Assembly (NCBI GenBank): GCA_020444545.1
Contig: JAHLKT010000006.1
Span: forward strand, 124,001 to 188,000
From: Desulfarculaceae bacterium
Lineage (GTDB): Bacteria > Desulfobacterota > Desulfarculia > Desulfarculales > Desulfarculaceae
DNA: 64,000 bases
Reading direction: 5' to 3'
The notes under the pieces were generated by a model. It was not told the DNA's origin, did not search any database, and was given only the letters and a program-made list of their open reading frames with translations. This document shows, in pieces, positions 12,441 to 48,634 of this stretch; positions within the stretch are counted from its first letter, which is position 1, and each line of letters begins with the position of its first letter. A program made the translations under genes and the position numbers.

Positions 12441-13307
12441 ATGAGCTGGTTTTGGCTGGCTGTGGGCGCGGCCTTTTTTCTGGCCACCTCCGACTTCCTG
12501 CTCAAGCGCAACTTCTCCGACCTGCCGGTGGGCCAGATGATCCTGGTGCGCCTCTCGGGCCTGCTGCCCGCCGGGCTGGCCCTGCTCTTGCTGGCCCCCA
12601 TCCCGCCCATCAAGCCCCAGTTCTACTGGTCCGTGGCCCTGGCCCTGCCCGCCGAGATTTTGGCCTTGTATCTCTACAACCGGGCCATCCAGGCCTCGCC
12701 CCTGGCCCTGAGCCTGCCGTTCTTGTCCTTTACGCCGCTATTCGTGGCGGTGATCGGCTTCCTGGTGCTGGGCGAGTCCCTGGACGGCTGGGGCCTGGGG
12801 GGCATCGTCTTGGTGGTGATCGGGGCCTACACCCTGAACCTGCACACCATCGGCCAAGGCGGCTGGAGCCAGCCAATTCGGGCCATCTTCCGGGAAAAGG
12901 GCTCCTGGATGATCCTGCTTACCAGCCTGCTCTATGCCTACACCCTGACCATGTGCAAGAACGCCATGTTGGGATCGAGCCCCTGGTTCATGGCCGGGGT
13001 GTACCCCTCGGTGCTGGCGATCCTGGTGGTAGCGGGCATGGGCGTGGCCGGCAGACTGGGCTGGGACTGGCTGAGGCGGCCTTGGGGCGTGGCCGGCGTG
13101 GGCCTGAGCACCGTGGCCATGGTTATCTGCCACTACTGGGCCCTGTCCATGGCCCCGGCCGCCTACATGATCGCGGTAAAGCGCCTTAGCATTCTCATGG
13201 CCGTGGCCTATGGCGGGGTGTTCCTCAAGGAGGCGCGCCTGGGCCAGCATCTCTTGGCCGGTGGGCTCATGGTGGGCGGGGCGGTGGTCATACTTTTGTG
13301 GGGTTGA
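12441..13307 (+). CDS. EamA/DMT-family transporter
   Basis: 288 residues, ten predicted hydrophobic spans in two repeats of five, the EamA arrangement. Markers are LYLYNRAIQASPLALSLPFL in the first repeat with its E at FLVLGESLDGWG, and AAYMIAVKRLSILMAVAYGG with FLKEARLGQHL in the second. Drug/metabolite transporters export amino acids, metabolites or similar; the substrate is unknown. Last gene of the DUF3842-CooT-hydrolase run. Confidence 0.85.
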   Translation: MSWFWLAVGAAFFLATSDFLLKRNFSDLPVGQMILVRLSGLLPAGLALLLLAPIPPIKPQFYWSVALALPAEILALYLYNRAIQASPLALSLPFLSFTPLFVAVIGFLVLGESLDGWGLGGIVLVVIGAYTLNLHTIGQGGWSQPIRAIFREKGSWMILLTSLLYAYTLTMCKNAMLGSSPWFMAGVYPSVLAILVVAGMGVAGRLGWDWLRRPWGVAGVGLSTVAMVICHYWALSMAPAAYMIAVKRLSILMAVAYGGVFLKEARLGQHLLAGGLMVGGAVVILLWG

Positions 13308-13310
13308 GCG

Positions 13311-13890
13311 GGGGAGGGCGAAGAAGCAAAAGAAGAAGAGGCGGGTAAAGGAAGAGGGGGAGAGCCGTCAGAGGGAAGCGTTTGGTGCGGCCATCCCGTC
13401 CACATCAGGTCCGGCCGCCGCTAGACACCGATCATCATGCCCGGTGAGAGCCTTCCGTCCCTGCGGCTCGGCATAACGACATCAAGGCACCAGCTTCCCA
13501 ACTGCCCCCCATGCTTTTTTTTAAAACCTCTTCTTGTCAAATTTGCTCCCTCCCGGCTGCACCGGTGCCAGCGCGGCGGCACAAGAAGCGCGCCAGCAGG
13601 TTGGGGCTCGGGGGATTTCTTGCCGCCTCGTGGGGCGAGGCGGCCCCGACAGGCAAGCTGTCGGGGGCAACAGGAGCGGGTGTTATGGTTTCTGCCGCCC
13701 GCGTCCGGTCAGACCCGCGCTGGCCTCAGGCCAGCTTCGCTCCGCTTAGTACCGCCATCAGACGCCGATCACACCGCCGCCCGGTGACACCCCGCTCCCG
13801 CGTCACTAAATCGCTGCCGCCCAAACCGCCCGCCCCAGCGCTTTCCCTTTATTCTTCACCTTCCAAACTTCTTGTTCTTTACCTGCCCAT
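13311..13890. repeat. Convergent-junction element, copy A (purine arm, structured core, pyrimidine arm)
   Basis: Fills most of a 656-base gap between convergent genes. Left arm 13311-13378 is almost pure purine; right arm 13841-13888 is almost pure pyrimidine, and the two share partly complementary stretches (AGGCGGGTAAAGGAAG against CTTTACCTGCCC). A second pyrimidine tract at 13508-13555 suggests two units joined. Inside, AGACACCGATCA (13423-13434) and AGACGCCGATCA (13760-13771) are direct repeats, each followed by CCCGGTGA. Three strong hairpins lie at 13622-13644, 13644-13666 and 13719-13735. No credible protein gene. Confidence 0.5.
13622..13666. other. Two adjoining perfect 9-bp hairpins inside copy A
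   Basis: GCCGCCTCG (13622-13630) pairs with CGAGGCGGC (13636-13644) over five bases; the adjoining CCCCGACAG (13644-13652) pairs with CTGTCGGGG (13658-13666) over five bases. Their strength suggests a folded RNA or DNA structure. Confidence 0.6.
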
Positions 13891-13963
13891 GGACGCACCC
13901 CTCCCCGCAGCCCCACAGCCGCCATGCCTATTCCTGACTTTTTGTTTTTTGCTCGGGCCCGGC

Positions 13964-15007
13964 CTAGGCCGACTCGCCCTTTAGGATCTTGCTCAGCTTG
14001 CTCATGGAAGTGCCCGGCCCCATGGCGATGAGGGTGTCGCCAACCTCCACCACCGTATCGGCGGGCGGGTTGAAGCGCATGGACCCGTCGGGCTTTTTCA
14101 CGGCCAGGACGATCAGGTCCAGCTTCTGGCGGATGCCCGAGTCCTTGAGGCTCACCCCGGCCAGGGAGGCCTGGGGCCCCACGGTCAGCTCCTCCATGCG
14201 CAGGGGCTGCTCTGTGGTGCTGTGGAAGGTCAGGTCGATGAAATCGGCCACCGAGGGGCGCAGCACGGTCTGGGCCATGCGCCGCGCGCCGATGAAGTAG
14301 GGGCTCACCACCTTGTCGGCCCCGGCGTGCTTGAGCTTGCGCTCGCTGCCCGGCTCGGTGGCCCGCGCGATGATGAACAGGTCGGGCCGCATGTCCTTGG
14401 CGGTGAGCACGATGTACACGTTGTCCGCGTCGGAGCTCACCGTGGCGATGAGGCCCTTGGCCCGCTCCACCCCCGCGGCCAACAGACTCTCGTCCTCGGT
14501 GGCCGAGCCCAGCACGTAGTTGATGCCCTCGGCCTCCAGGCGGCGAGTGACCTCATCCTTGTCGTCGATCACCACCACCTCGCGGCCCGATTCCTTGATC
14601 ATCTCGGTGACCAGGGCGCCGATGCGCCCGTAGCCGCAGACGATGTAATGATCTTTTATGGAGCGGATGGCGCGTTCCAAGCTTCGCCTCCCCATGACCT
14701 GCCTGAGCTTGCCCTCCACCACGAACTGGGCGAAGGCGGTGAGCAGGTAAAAGATGGTGCCCACGCCGGTGAGCATGAGAATCATGGTGAAGATACGGCC
14801 CTGGGTGCCCAGAGGGTGCACCTCGCCGAAGCCCACCGTGGTCACGGTGATCACGGTCATGTAAATGGCTTCCAGCCAGGTGTAGTTCTCCAGGAAGCGG
14901 TAGCCCAGGGTGCCCATGACGATCACCCCGACGCCGCCGGCGATGCCCAGCCATATTTTGGAGAACCCACTCGCCCGTTTGGGCGGGGCGGAGGAGGAGA
15001 TGGGCAA
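13964..15007 (-). CDS. Potassium channel with RCK (TrkA-N/TrkA-C) domains
   Basis: 347 residues. One span near residues 20-38, then a pore helix and selectivity filter TVITVTTVGFGEVHP, a second span (RIFTMILMLTGVGTIFYLL), then a cytoplasmic Rossmann RCK domain (IVCGYGRIGALVTEMI; VVVIDDKDEV) and a TrkA-C part at the end (GDTLIAMGPGTSM). This is the MthK/Kch layout: a two-span potassium channel gated by a ligand in the RCK ring. Start TTG 15007 lacks a clear ribosome site but no other start precedes the first span. It follows the DUF3426 gene by five bases. Confidence 0.9.
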   Translation of the reverse strand: MPISSSAPPKRASGFSKIWLGIAGGVGVIVMGTLGYRFLENYTWLEAIYMTVITVTTVGFGEVHPLGTQGRIFTMILMLTGVGTIFYLLTAFAQFVVEGKLRQVMGRRSLERAIRSIKDHYIVCGYGRIGALVTEMIKESGREVVVIDDKDEVTRRLEAEGINYVLGSATEDESLLAAGVERAKGLIATVSSDADNVYIVLTAKDMRPDLFIIARATEPGSERKLKHAGADKVVSPYFIGARRMAQTVLRPSVADFIDLTFHSTTEQPLRMEELTVGPQASLAGVSLKDSGIRQKLDLIVLAVKKPDGSMRFNPPADTVVEVGDTLIAMGPGTSMSKLSKILKGESA

Positions 15008-23486: not shown

Positions 23487-24128
23487 GTGCTTTTGGAAGT
23501 GTGCGAAATATTCCTCAGCCTGCAAGGCGAGTCCAGCTTCATGGGCCTGCCCTGCGTGTTCGTGCGCCTGTCCGGCTGCCCCCTAAGCTGCGCCTGGTGC
23601 GATACCGCCTATGCCAAGGCCCCGGGCGAGATGATGCCCCTGCCCGAGATCGCGGAAAAGGTGGGCCAGTACGGCGTGGGTCTGGTGGAGCTCACCGGCG
23701 GCGAGCCCCTGGTGCAGCTGGCCGCCCCAGAGCTCATGGCCATGCTCAGCGCCGAGGGCTACACCGTACTCTTGGAAACCAGCGGGGCGATCAGCATCGC
23801 CCCGGTGCCCGAAGCGGTGCATCTGATCATGGACCTAAAGTGCCCCTCGTCGGGCATGCACGAAAAAATGCACTGGCCCAACCTGGACATGCTTCGGGAG
23901 CACCACCAGGTCAAGTTCGTGCTGGCCGACCGCGCGGACTACGAATACGCCAAGGGGCTCATGGAGCGTTACCACCTCCCCGAGCGGGCCCAGGTGCTGC
24001 TCTCCTGCGTGCACGGCGCGGTGGAACCGGCCCATGTGGCCGAGTGGATGCTGGCCGACCGCCTGGAGGCGCGCTTCCAGCTGCCCCTGCACAAGCAGCT
24101 GTGGCCGGGCCGCGATCGCGGGGTCTAG
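23487..24128 (+). CDS. queE: 7-carboxy-7-deazaguanine synthase
   Basis: 213 residues. Radical-SAM enzyme that contracts the ring of 6-carboxytetrahydropterin on the way to preQ0 and queuosine. Begins VLLEVCEIFLSLQGESS and has the cluster motif in CPLSCAWCDTAYA, then VELTGGEPLVQ and LLETSGA. Start GTG 23487 is chosen because AAGGGAGG lies four bases upstream; GTG 23463 or ATG 23469 would add eight or six residues. queA and tgt are at 1682-3908; queC and queD are not in the window. Confidence 0.92.
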   Translation: MLLEVCEIFLSLQGESSFMGLPCVFVRLSGCPLSCAWCDTAYAKAPGEMMPLPEIAEKVGQYGVGLVELTGGEPLVQLAAPELMAMLSAEGYTVLLETSGAISIAPVPEAVHLIMDLKCPSSGMHEKMHWPNLDMLREHHQVKFVLADRADYEYAKGLMERYHLPERAQVLLSCVHGAVEPAHVAEWMLADRLEARFQLPLHKQLWPGRDRGV

Positions 24129-24382
24129 GAGAAAGAGAAAAGATAAAGAGAGAAGAGGTTGGGAATAGGGGGCGGGGGAGGGGGCCCTGCTCATGCGCGG
24201 CGGCGGGGTGTCGGTGGGGCGTCCGACTGGAACCGGCCCTGACGCCTCCTTAACGGCGCACCAGCTATAACGCGGGCCCCACGTGACCCCGCCTCTACAG
24301 CGGGCCCGCCGGGATTAGCCCGGCGCATAGCATTGCACCGAGCCTTCTTCCCTTCCTAACAACTCTTTTCTTTCCCTGCCCC
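24129..24382. repeat. Convergent-junction element, copy B
   Basis: Lies between queE and the octaheme cytochrome gene, which converge. Left arm 24129-24182 is purine-rich (AAAGAGAAAAGATAAAGAG and onwards); right arm 24341-24382 is pyrimidine-rich (CTTCTTCCCTTCC, CTCTTTTCTTTCCC). The arms are roughly complementary. The core (24183-24340) is GC-rich with no supported gene. Same layout as copies A and C. Confidence 0.5.
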
Positions 24383-48352: not shown

Positions 48353-48634
48353 GGGGCGAAAGGGAGGGGGGAGAGAGAAAAGAGGGGAGAAGTCGGTGAA
48401 GGAAAAGAGGGGAAACGGGTGGCGCGGCGTTGTTGCCAGCTCGGGCGTCGGTGATGGCAGCGCGCGTGGGACGAACTGGGCGTCCTGAGAGCGCCGCCGT
48501 GTGGTGGCGAGGGCGAGAGGATCAGGAGAACGGATAGGAGTGGGGGAGCTGGCGGCTGCCTGGAGTGCGCACAACAGACGGCGCGGAGCACAACCGACCT
48601 TTAGCTTTTCACCGACCTCTTATTGCCTTCTCTG
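48353..48634. repeat. Convergent-junction element, copy C
   Basis: Lies between the ASKHA gene terminator and the EndoIII-like gene, which converge. Left arm 48353-48417 is purine-rich (GGGAGGGGGGAGAGAG and onwards), right arm about 48590-48634 is pyrimidine-rich. TCGGTGAA (48393-48400) in the left arm has its exact complement TTCACCGA (48608-48615) in the right arm, inside longer partial complementarity. The core reads GCCATCACCGACGCC on the minus strand (48458-48444), close to GCCATCAGACGCC in copy A (13754-13766). No supported gene. Confidence 0.5.

Follow-up and report, generated by a model that had tools for sequence, protein, structure and literature searches.

A dispersed two-hairpin REP between convergent genes of a Desulfarculaceae bacterium and its association with one group of RAYT transposases

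The convergent junction and its features

The element described here lies in a window of 64,000 nt (the whole stretch of DNA that was analyzed; positions refer to it unless a contig or locus is given), between two convergent genes. These genes, for an EamA-family transporter and a potassium channel with TrkA domains, leave a gap of 656 nt that holds the studied stretch, 13311-13890, for most of its length; no tRNA or tmRNA was found. When the gap was searched by BLAST against its own genome (4.38 Mb in 11 contigs), only its positions 300 to 370 were matched elsewhere (E ≤ 0.001). There were 23 further places, and all of them match this same segment, which comprises two hairpins and short flanks. 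We refer to the hairpin element as a REP (repetitive extragenic palindrome) for the reasons given below. The features of the junction are as follows.

12441-13307, forward strand: gene for an EamA-family transporter, the left neighbor (Pfam PF00892)
13310-13364, forward strand: purine tract outside the REP, unexplained (purine-tract scan of the window)
13543-13590, reverse strand: possible decayed inverted partner of the REP, in which a 5-bp stem comes after TTCTTG; it faces the intact copy head to head, 23 nt from its head
13614-13673, forward strand: REP of family I, with head GATTTCTTG, two adjoining hairpins and tail GCAACAG (79.1 bits with model R1, whose own alignment includes this copy)
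13619-13622, forward strand: CTTG foot at the base of hairpin 1, a putative guide (TTTCTTG, ahead of hairpin 1, is invariant in 25 aligned copies; C[CT]TG occurs at RAYT genes of other species)
13623-13643, forward strand: hairpin 1, 8 bp (two-sided changes at six of eight pairs in 25 copies; DNA fold)
13644-13666, forward strand: hairpin 2, 9 bp (98.7% of cells paired; one pair is C-G in 14 copies and U-A in 11)
13667-13673, forward strand: conserved tail, a putative cut region (C, A, C and A of.CA.CA invariant in 25 copies)
13964-15007, reverse strand: gene for a potassium channel with TrkA domains, the right neighbor (Pfam PF02254, PF07885 and PF02080)

All of the features named in a preliminary description of this stretch are present at their positions, and it is their weight that differs. 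The two adjoining 9-bp stems at 13622-13666 are far above chance, with two such stems observed against a mean of 0.028 in 500 dinucleotide shuffles of 13311-13890, of which two reached the same number. The stems cannot both be 9 bp simultaneously, since the ninth pair of hairpin 1, 13622-13644, competes with hairpin 2 and C13644 is claimed by both; the DNA fold gives the two as alternatives. Folded as DNA, the 60-nt element at 13614-13673 has a z score of -5.31, equaled by none of 200 shuffles.

The direct repeat AGAC[A/G]CCGATCA does match at 11 of 12 positions, but on its own it carries only the weight expected by chance: such pairs occur at a mean of 1.09 per shuffle, and 46.5% of 200 shuffles contain one. 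As the boundary of a unit it was therefore set aside. The near-perfect palindrome at 13719-13735 is likewise present, with a 7-bp stem and a 3-nt loop, but stands at chance level (0.36 such stems expected per shuffle). The purine tract at 13310-13364 is real, and is one of three in the window; the others are at 24127-24184 and 48353-48415. Each lies within or adjoins a convergent junction, and their arms resemble each other weakly (38 nt, E = 1.8e-4). A scan of the window for pyrimidine tracts at equal score gave none. The idea that purine arms mark convergent gene ends in general was rejected: mean purine content was 0.53 across the 36 ends of 18 junctions, with seven ends above 0.6 and five below 0.4. 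With 60 nt, the REP makes up a small part of the 656-nt junction, most of which remains without explanation.

A dispersed, covarying repeat and its placement

The matches of the window copy provided 25 copies, whose alignment ignored structure. The covariance model derived from it found at least 80 matches in the genome at E ≤ 0.01, a lower bound because 150 of 8,224 first-look candidates were scored. Within the 64-kb window, 13614-13673 is the sole full match to the model, and no second REP was found. A match on the minus strand at 13644-13666 (E = 0.06) was discarded as a second REP; it is hairpin 2 read backwards.

Hairpin 1 is variable in sequence among the 25 copies and keeps its pairing. 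Its outer pair is C-G in 14 copies and U-A in 11, and the next is C-G in 17 and U-A in 7. Compensatory, two-sided changes occupy 46 cells, compared to 19.5 in shuffles, with none of 500 shuffles as high, and sliding the structure along the alignment drops the paired share from 91% to 35-46%. The number of pair types was not above that in shuffles (500 of 500 as high). A control pattern read backwards was also common in the genome, at 94 and 101 compared to 151 and 156 for the true pattern, and thus short motifs by themselves prove little.

Two subfamilies can be told apart by head, second stem and tail. Family I, to which the window copy belongs, has a head ..TTTCTTG, stem 2 CCCCGA and tail CARCAR, and 36 of the 80 copies carry all three marks; family II, with ..CCTC[CT]TG, CCCAGA and CACCC, accounts for 16. 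At least one of the three marks differs in the remaining 28. Where both ends could be classed, head and tail were concordant in 65 of 66 copies. One hybrid (C1:759929-759977) joins a family-II head and stem-2 start to a family-I tail, possibly by recombination between the subfamilies.

Other short repeats are also dispersed in these genomes. One of them carries GTCATTGCGAGGAGC on one strand, has GGCAATC-like ends and occurs in many copies in this genome (for example at L033:1623-1698, contig C3) and in G001 and G003; it recalls the CGTC-tagged REPs discussed below. The window holds no GTCATTGCGAGGAGC repeat, with 2.43 matches of up to three mismatches expected by chance. Another, palindromic, carries GGGGCGGGGTTTATCCCCGCCC on each arm and is found in many copies, at L033:1317-1391 and at other places of this genome and G003, and a repeat of about 117 nt (L044:1331-1447) has many copies across the genus, with matches in seven other genomes of the genus.

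The copies are extragenic, in that none of the best 30 of the 80 lies inside a gene called by our crude caller. Reduced by hand to 24 distinct junctions, these 30 copies occupy 15 convergent, 8 co-directional and 1 divergent junction. The convergent share is well above that in the window (15/24 versus 8/51; Fisher p = 9e-5, with the crude gene caller and with the window's own junction counted in both sets). In the eight co-directional junctions, the REP lies on the strand of the genes in four and on the opposite strand in four, which fits a DNA element better than an RNA.

The junction is longer here than in relatives. Stop codons of the same two genes are 0, 5, 5 and 22 nt apart in the same-genus genomes G004, G005, G007 and G006, compared to 656 nt here; G001 had no EamA match at this junction, G002 a DNA match to part only, and G003 no usable match. 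At a second site (C3:560653-560783), the flanks are 7 nt apart in G005, and a related REP is kept in G006; at a third (C7:121465-121681), they are 26 nt apart in G003. The compared junctions either grew here or shrank in the relatives. What the short junctions reflect is growth or loss of the junction, not insertion of the REP alone.

REP copies also occur as inverted pairs. Neighbors less than 400 nt apart (n = 33) are arranged head to head in 11 cases, tail to tail in 10 and in the same direction in 12; at gaps of 60 nt or less, 19 of 23 neighbors are inverted (p = 0.0013, with triplets sharing members). This arrangement is that of REPINs, for which the text of PMC3116915 interprets a REP standing alone as what is left of a pair. 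The window copy is single. The stretch at 13543-13590 may be the decayed half of such a pair: its resemblance is equaled by 9 of 20,000 shuffles and by 24 of 12,786 stretches of the window, and it scores only 5.5 bits with the covariance model (E = 0.31). On that reading, the window copy probably goes back to an old inverted pair (REPIN) that lost its second half to decay. The preliminary description had offered a decayed mobile repeat as one possibility. For the 60-nt core this comes close: the core is a REP with copies across the genome and a tie to a transposase (see below), but this copy looks intact, and decay applies only to the putative partner, which does look decayed.

A RAYT for each subfamily and the weighing of explanations

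The genome has two Y1 transposase genes, on contigs C7 and C1, and copies of the REP flank both. Both products exceed the NCBIfam cut-off of 80 bits for REP_Tyr_transpos (NF047646), at 112 and 113.5 bits, and the C7 protein, the one used in this comparison, matches the solved structure of E. coli TnpAREP (4er8) at E = 3.5e-5. HUH and Y motifs are present in each: MPDHVH in both, with DHVH, WK and YMHQNP in the C7 gene and DHVH, WQ and YMHNNP in the C1 gene. The RAYTs considered here are 170-186 aa long, the C7 protein being 170 aa. Each REP subfamily adjoins its own RAYT gene.

G000:C7:111383-111895: RAYT gene on the family-I side, with five family-I copies adjoining (G000 is the genome of the window)
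C1:51133-51693: RAYT gene on the family-II side, with two family-II copies adjoining

The association extends to other species. Ten of 60 genomes, this one included, have matches to the REP model at E ≤ 1e-4. RAYT-like loci found by protein similarity, 38 in all (27, then 11 more) and drawn from Desulfobacterota, two Planctomycetota and one Bacteroidota, were scanned within 500 nt for a C[CT]TG foot with two adjoining hairpins; the scan covered RAYT-like places with an assigned locus. Such a unit was present at 13 of the 38. In the first set, 12 of 27 loci had it and 15 lacked it, and all 12 belong to one RAYT group, with MPDH[VI]H and YxHxNP; shuffling these 27 stretches gave 0.7 matches per round. 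The further 11 loci gave one match, at L110, which lacks the usual head or tail and looks like chance. Across the whole window the foot and two-hairpin pattern matches 12 times, the REP included, and so single matches can be chance, as is probably the case for one of the two at L088.

On a maximum-likelihood tree the RAYT group comprises 14 rows, with support (88/86) below the starred level, and the REP label needs three changes, compared to a mean of 9.1 when shuffled (0 of 500 as low). The two rows of the group outside the 12 are L186, which has MPNHVH and no such REP, and L115, whose very long branch makes its placement unsure. Around L115, from Flexibacter, inverted single hairpins are found, but the 500 nt scanned contain no two hairpins with a C[CT]TG foot. 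Two of the 12 loci are from Planctomycetaceae, at 47% and 45% identity. Because the head.CCTCTTG and the tail CCACCC recur in several genera, family I, the form in the window, looks derived.

We favor the explanation that the hairpin element is a dispersed, non-autonomous DNA repeat, a REP, of which the window copy is one of about 80, and we put the probability of this REP and RAYT explanation as a whole at roughly 0.85. One can picture the 60-nt REP folding as single-stranded DNA, with its two adjoining hairpins held between the CTTG foot and the conserved tail. The cognate RAYT encoded on contig C7 would recognize, cut and strand-transfer it in trans, and copies would accumulate between genes, mostly convergent ones. 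What the data show directly is the dispersal, the covarying paired structure, the tie of REP form to one RAYT group in several species and a junction longer than that of relatives; recognition as a single strand, cutting and mobility are steps that we infer, and the REP is probably mobile. The E. coli enzyme, TnpAREP, binds and cuts single-stranded REP, as described in the text of PMC8266576.

That leaves the possibility that the hairpins act as RNA. Structured RNA, in the form of a small RNA or a 3′ UTR element kept for its function and dispersed only secondarily, would account for the compensatory changes equally well, as these suit RNA pairing no less than DNA pairing, and convergent junctions, 15 of the 24 here, are where transcript 3′ ends lie. 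We nonetheless consider it very unlikely. No Rfam family reached its gathering score in the window, and neither a sigma-70-like promoter, the one kind scanned for, nor a terminator-like site was found in 13200-14100. Nor does the stretch have an excess of RNA structure (z = -0.89 for the 583 nt of 13308-13890, with 15 of 100 shuffles as good). The even split of strands in co-directional junctions and the association with one RAYT group across species argue in the same direction, and the structured small RNA raised in the preliminary description is left without support. That description had also judged the structure to be more than a simple terminator needs, which is fair; no T-run follows the stems. 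A related idea is that a former REP now serves as a bidirectional terminator, or a barrier to transcript ends, between the convergent genes. The position of the element and the over-representation of convergent junctions, as scored with the crude caller, would suit this role, but 13200-14100 contains no site where a stem is followed by a T-run and nothing else that resembles a terminator; the text of PMC3733652 also places REPs of other genomes at convergent ends, and the placement may reflect tolerance alone. We see only a slim chance for it. Taken as a whole, the evidence favors a dispersed DNA repeat over a small RNA or a terminator.

It could also be that the REP sits within a larger composite whose flanks, 13415-13583 and 13751-13917, arose by direct duplication long ago; two joined units had been suspected earlier. 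Here the outcome depends on the scoring. Permissive alignment of the flanks was matched by none of 1,000 dinucleotide shuffles and by 15 to 16 of 2,000 block shuffles, and the 12-mer together with the shared CCCGGTGA was found in only 4 of 3,000 shuffles (a test picked after inspection of the data). Under strict scoring, however, 49 of 1,000 and 155 to 169 of 2,000 shuffles did as well. Of 20 comparisons between intergenic stretches in the window, 2 to 5 scored equally high, and the genome contains no further copy of 13395-13505 (the best match after itself has E = 0.12). The flank alignment is not clearly above real intergenic controls of the window, and we regard such a duplication as unlikely.

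Relation to known REPs

The dispersed REP described here has much in common with the GT[AG]G REPs and REPINs of E. coli, Pseudomonas and Stenotrophomonas and their RAYT (TnpAREP). As these are described in the texts of PMC6006769 and PMC3116915, they too are short intergenic palindromes in many copies, often in inverted pairs, that flank a cognate HUH/Y1 transposase, with one transposase per REP family. They differ in that the foot here is C[CT]TG (with CTTG, not GT[AG]G, invariant in the 25 copies), the hairpins are two and adjoining, and a 3′ tail is conserved. In the entries consulted, the REP table of PMC2817692 has feet of the GTAG/GTGG kind and CTTG inside hairpins only.

"Atypical" REPs come closer in some respects. 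These belong to TnpAY1 subclass 2.6 (group 5 of Bertels) and to class 3, with foot CnGA, and have non-GTAG structures beside the gene and copies elsewhere (main text of PMC6006769). The Y motif of subclass 2.6, YIH[QN]NP (table 1 of PMC6006769), is near the YMH[QN]NP found here; the subclass, mostly from Bacteroidetes in that text, has NH[LIV]H and WQ, compared to MPDH[VI]H here, with WK in the C7 gene and WQ in the C1 gene. The text calls its REPs atypical without giving sequence letters. TIRtrons are tyrosine transposases flanked by repeats, some of them double palindromes and some forming dimers or families (text of PMC3733652), but they share the motif GGGGWSAS, and most TIRYTs are of subclass 2.1 with a median of 238 aa (texts of PMC3733652 and PMC6006769), compared to 170-186 aa here. 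CGTC-tagged REPs are dispersed tagged palindromes as well, with another tag, and are reported in the text of PMC3733652 without a dedicated transposase. Neither the CGTC tag nor the CnGA foot is seen in the 25-copy alignment.

The feet named in the parts of PMC6006769, PMC3733652 and PMC2817692 that we consulted are GT[AG]G, CGTC and CnGA, and the main texts of PMC6006769, PMC3733652 and PMC8266576 do not contain the string "CTTG". Our literature search, with supplements and most subscription papers outside its reach, met no CTTG-footed or two-hairpin REPs. The form of the REP differs from the main published REP classes. The "double palindromic" terminal inverted repeats in the legend to figure 9 of PMC3733652 may already include units like this one.

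How the foot might work can be imagined from Marinomonas REPs, on which a guide rule was tested; as set out in the text of PMC8266576, the cut can be determined by cross-pairing with bases of the foot, which has four (A3G4 with CT, T2G4 with CA). By this rule the CTTG foot would select a CA cut, its T3G4 pairing with the CA of the tail. This is a guess by analogy. The family-I tail has an invariant CA, and CCACCC contains CA as well; of the tails at L105 and L112, not all agree with the idea.

More speculatively, REPs with a C[CT]TG foot, two hairpins and a tail may form a separate class, served by one RAYT group and found in at least two phyla. They would follow another guide rule, with CTTG directing a CA cut in the tail, and having guide and cut side on one REP would allow a single unit to move, not only an inverted pair. 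The subfamilies, one with head ACCTC[CT]TG and tail CCACCC and the other with head ATTTCTTG and tail CCARCAG, would then represent a naturally occurring switch in which head and tail change together. We hold this proposal as tentative and would not wager on it, the more so since the "double palindromic" repeats could be a prior description of such units.

Pairs of REP and RAYT serve as models of domesticated single-strand transposases and of long-lived selfish repeats. A two-hairpin class with a different foot, together with two sister subfamilies in a single genome that differ jointly in head and tail, is a natural experiment on how a RAYT selects the REP it acts on and the place where it cuts. 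The pairing is not uniform across relatives. G001 and G006 have 10 and 5 REP matches, respectively, and no REP_Tyr_transpos match at E ≤ 0.001; in these genomes the repeats may have outlived their transposase. A relative from the same class, G031, has at least three kinds of RAYT-like gene, with 11 matches in one genome, and its loci include both the E. coli-like type (YIHYNP) and the two-hairpin type.
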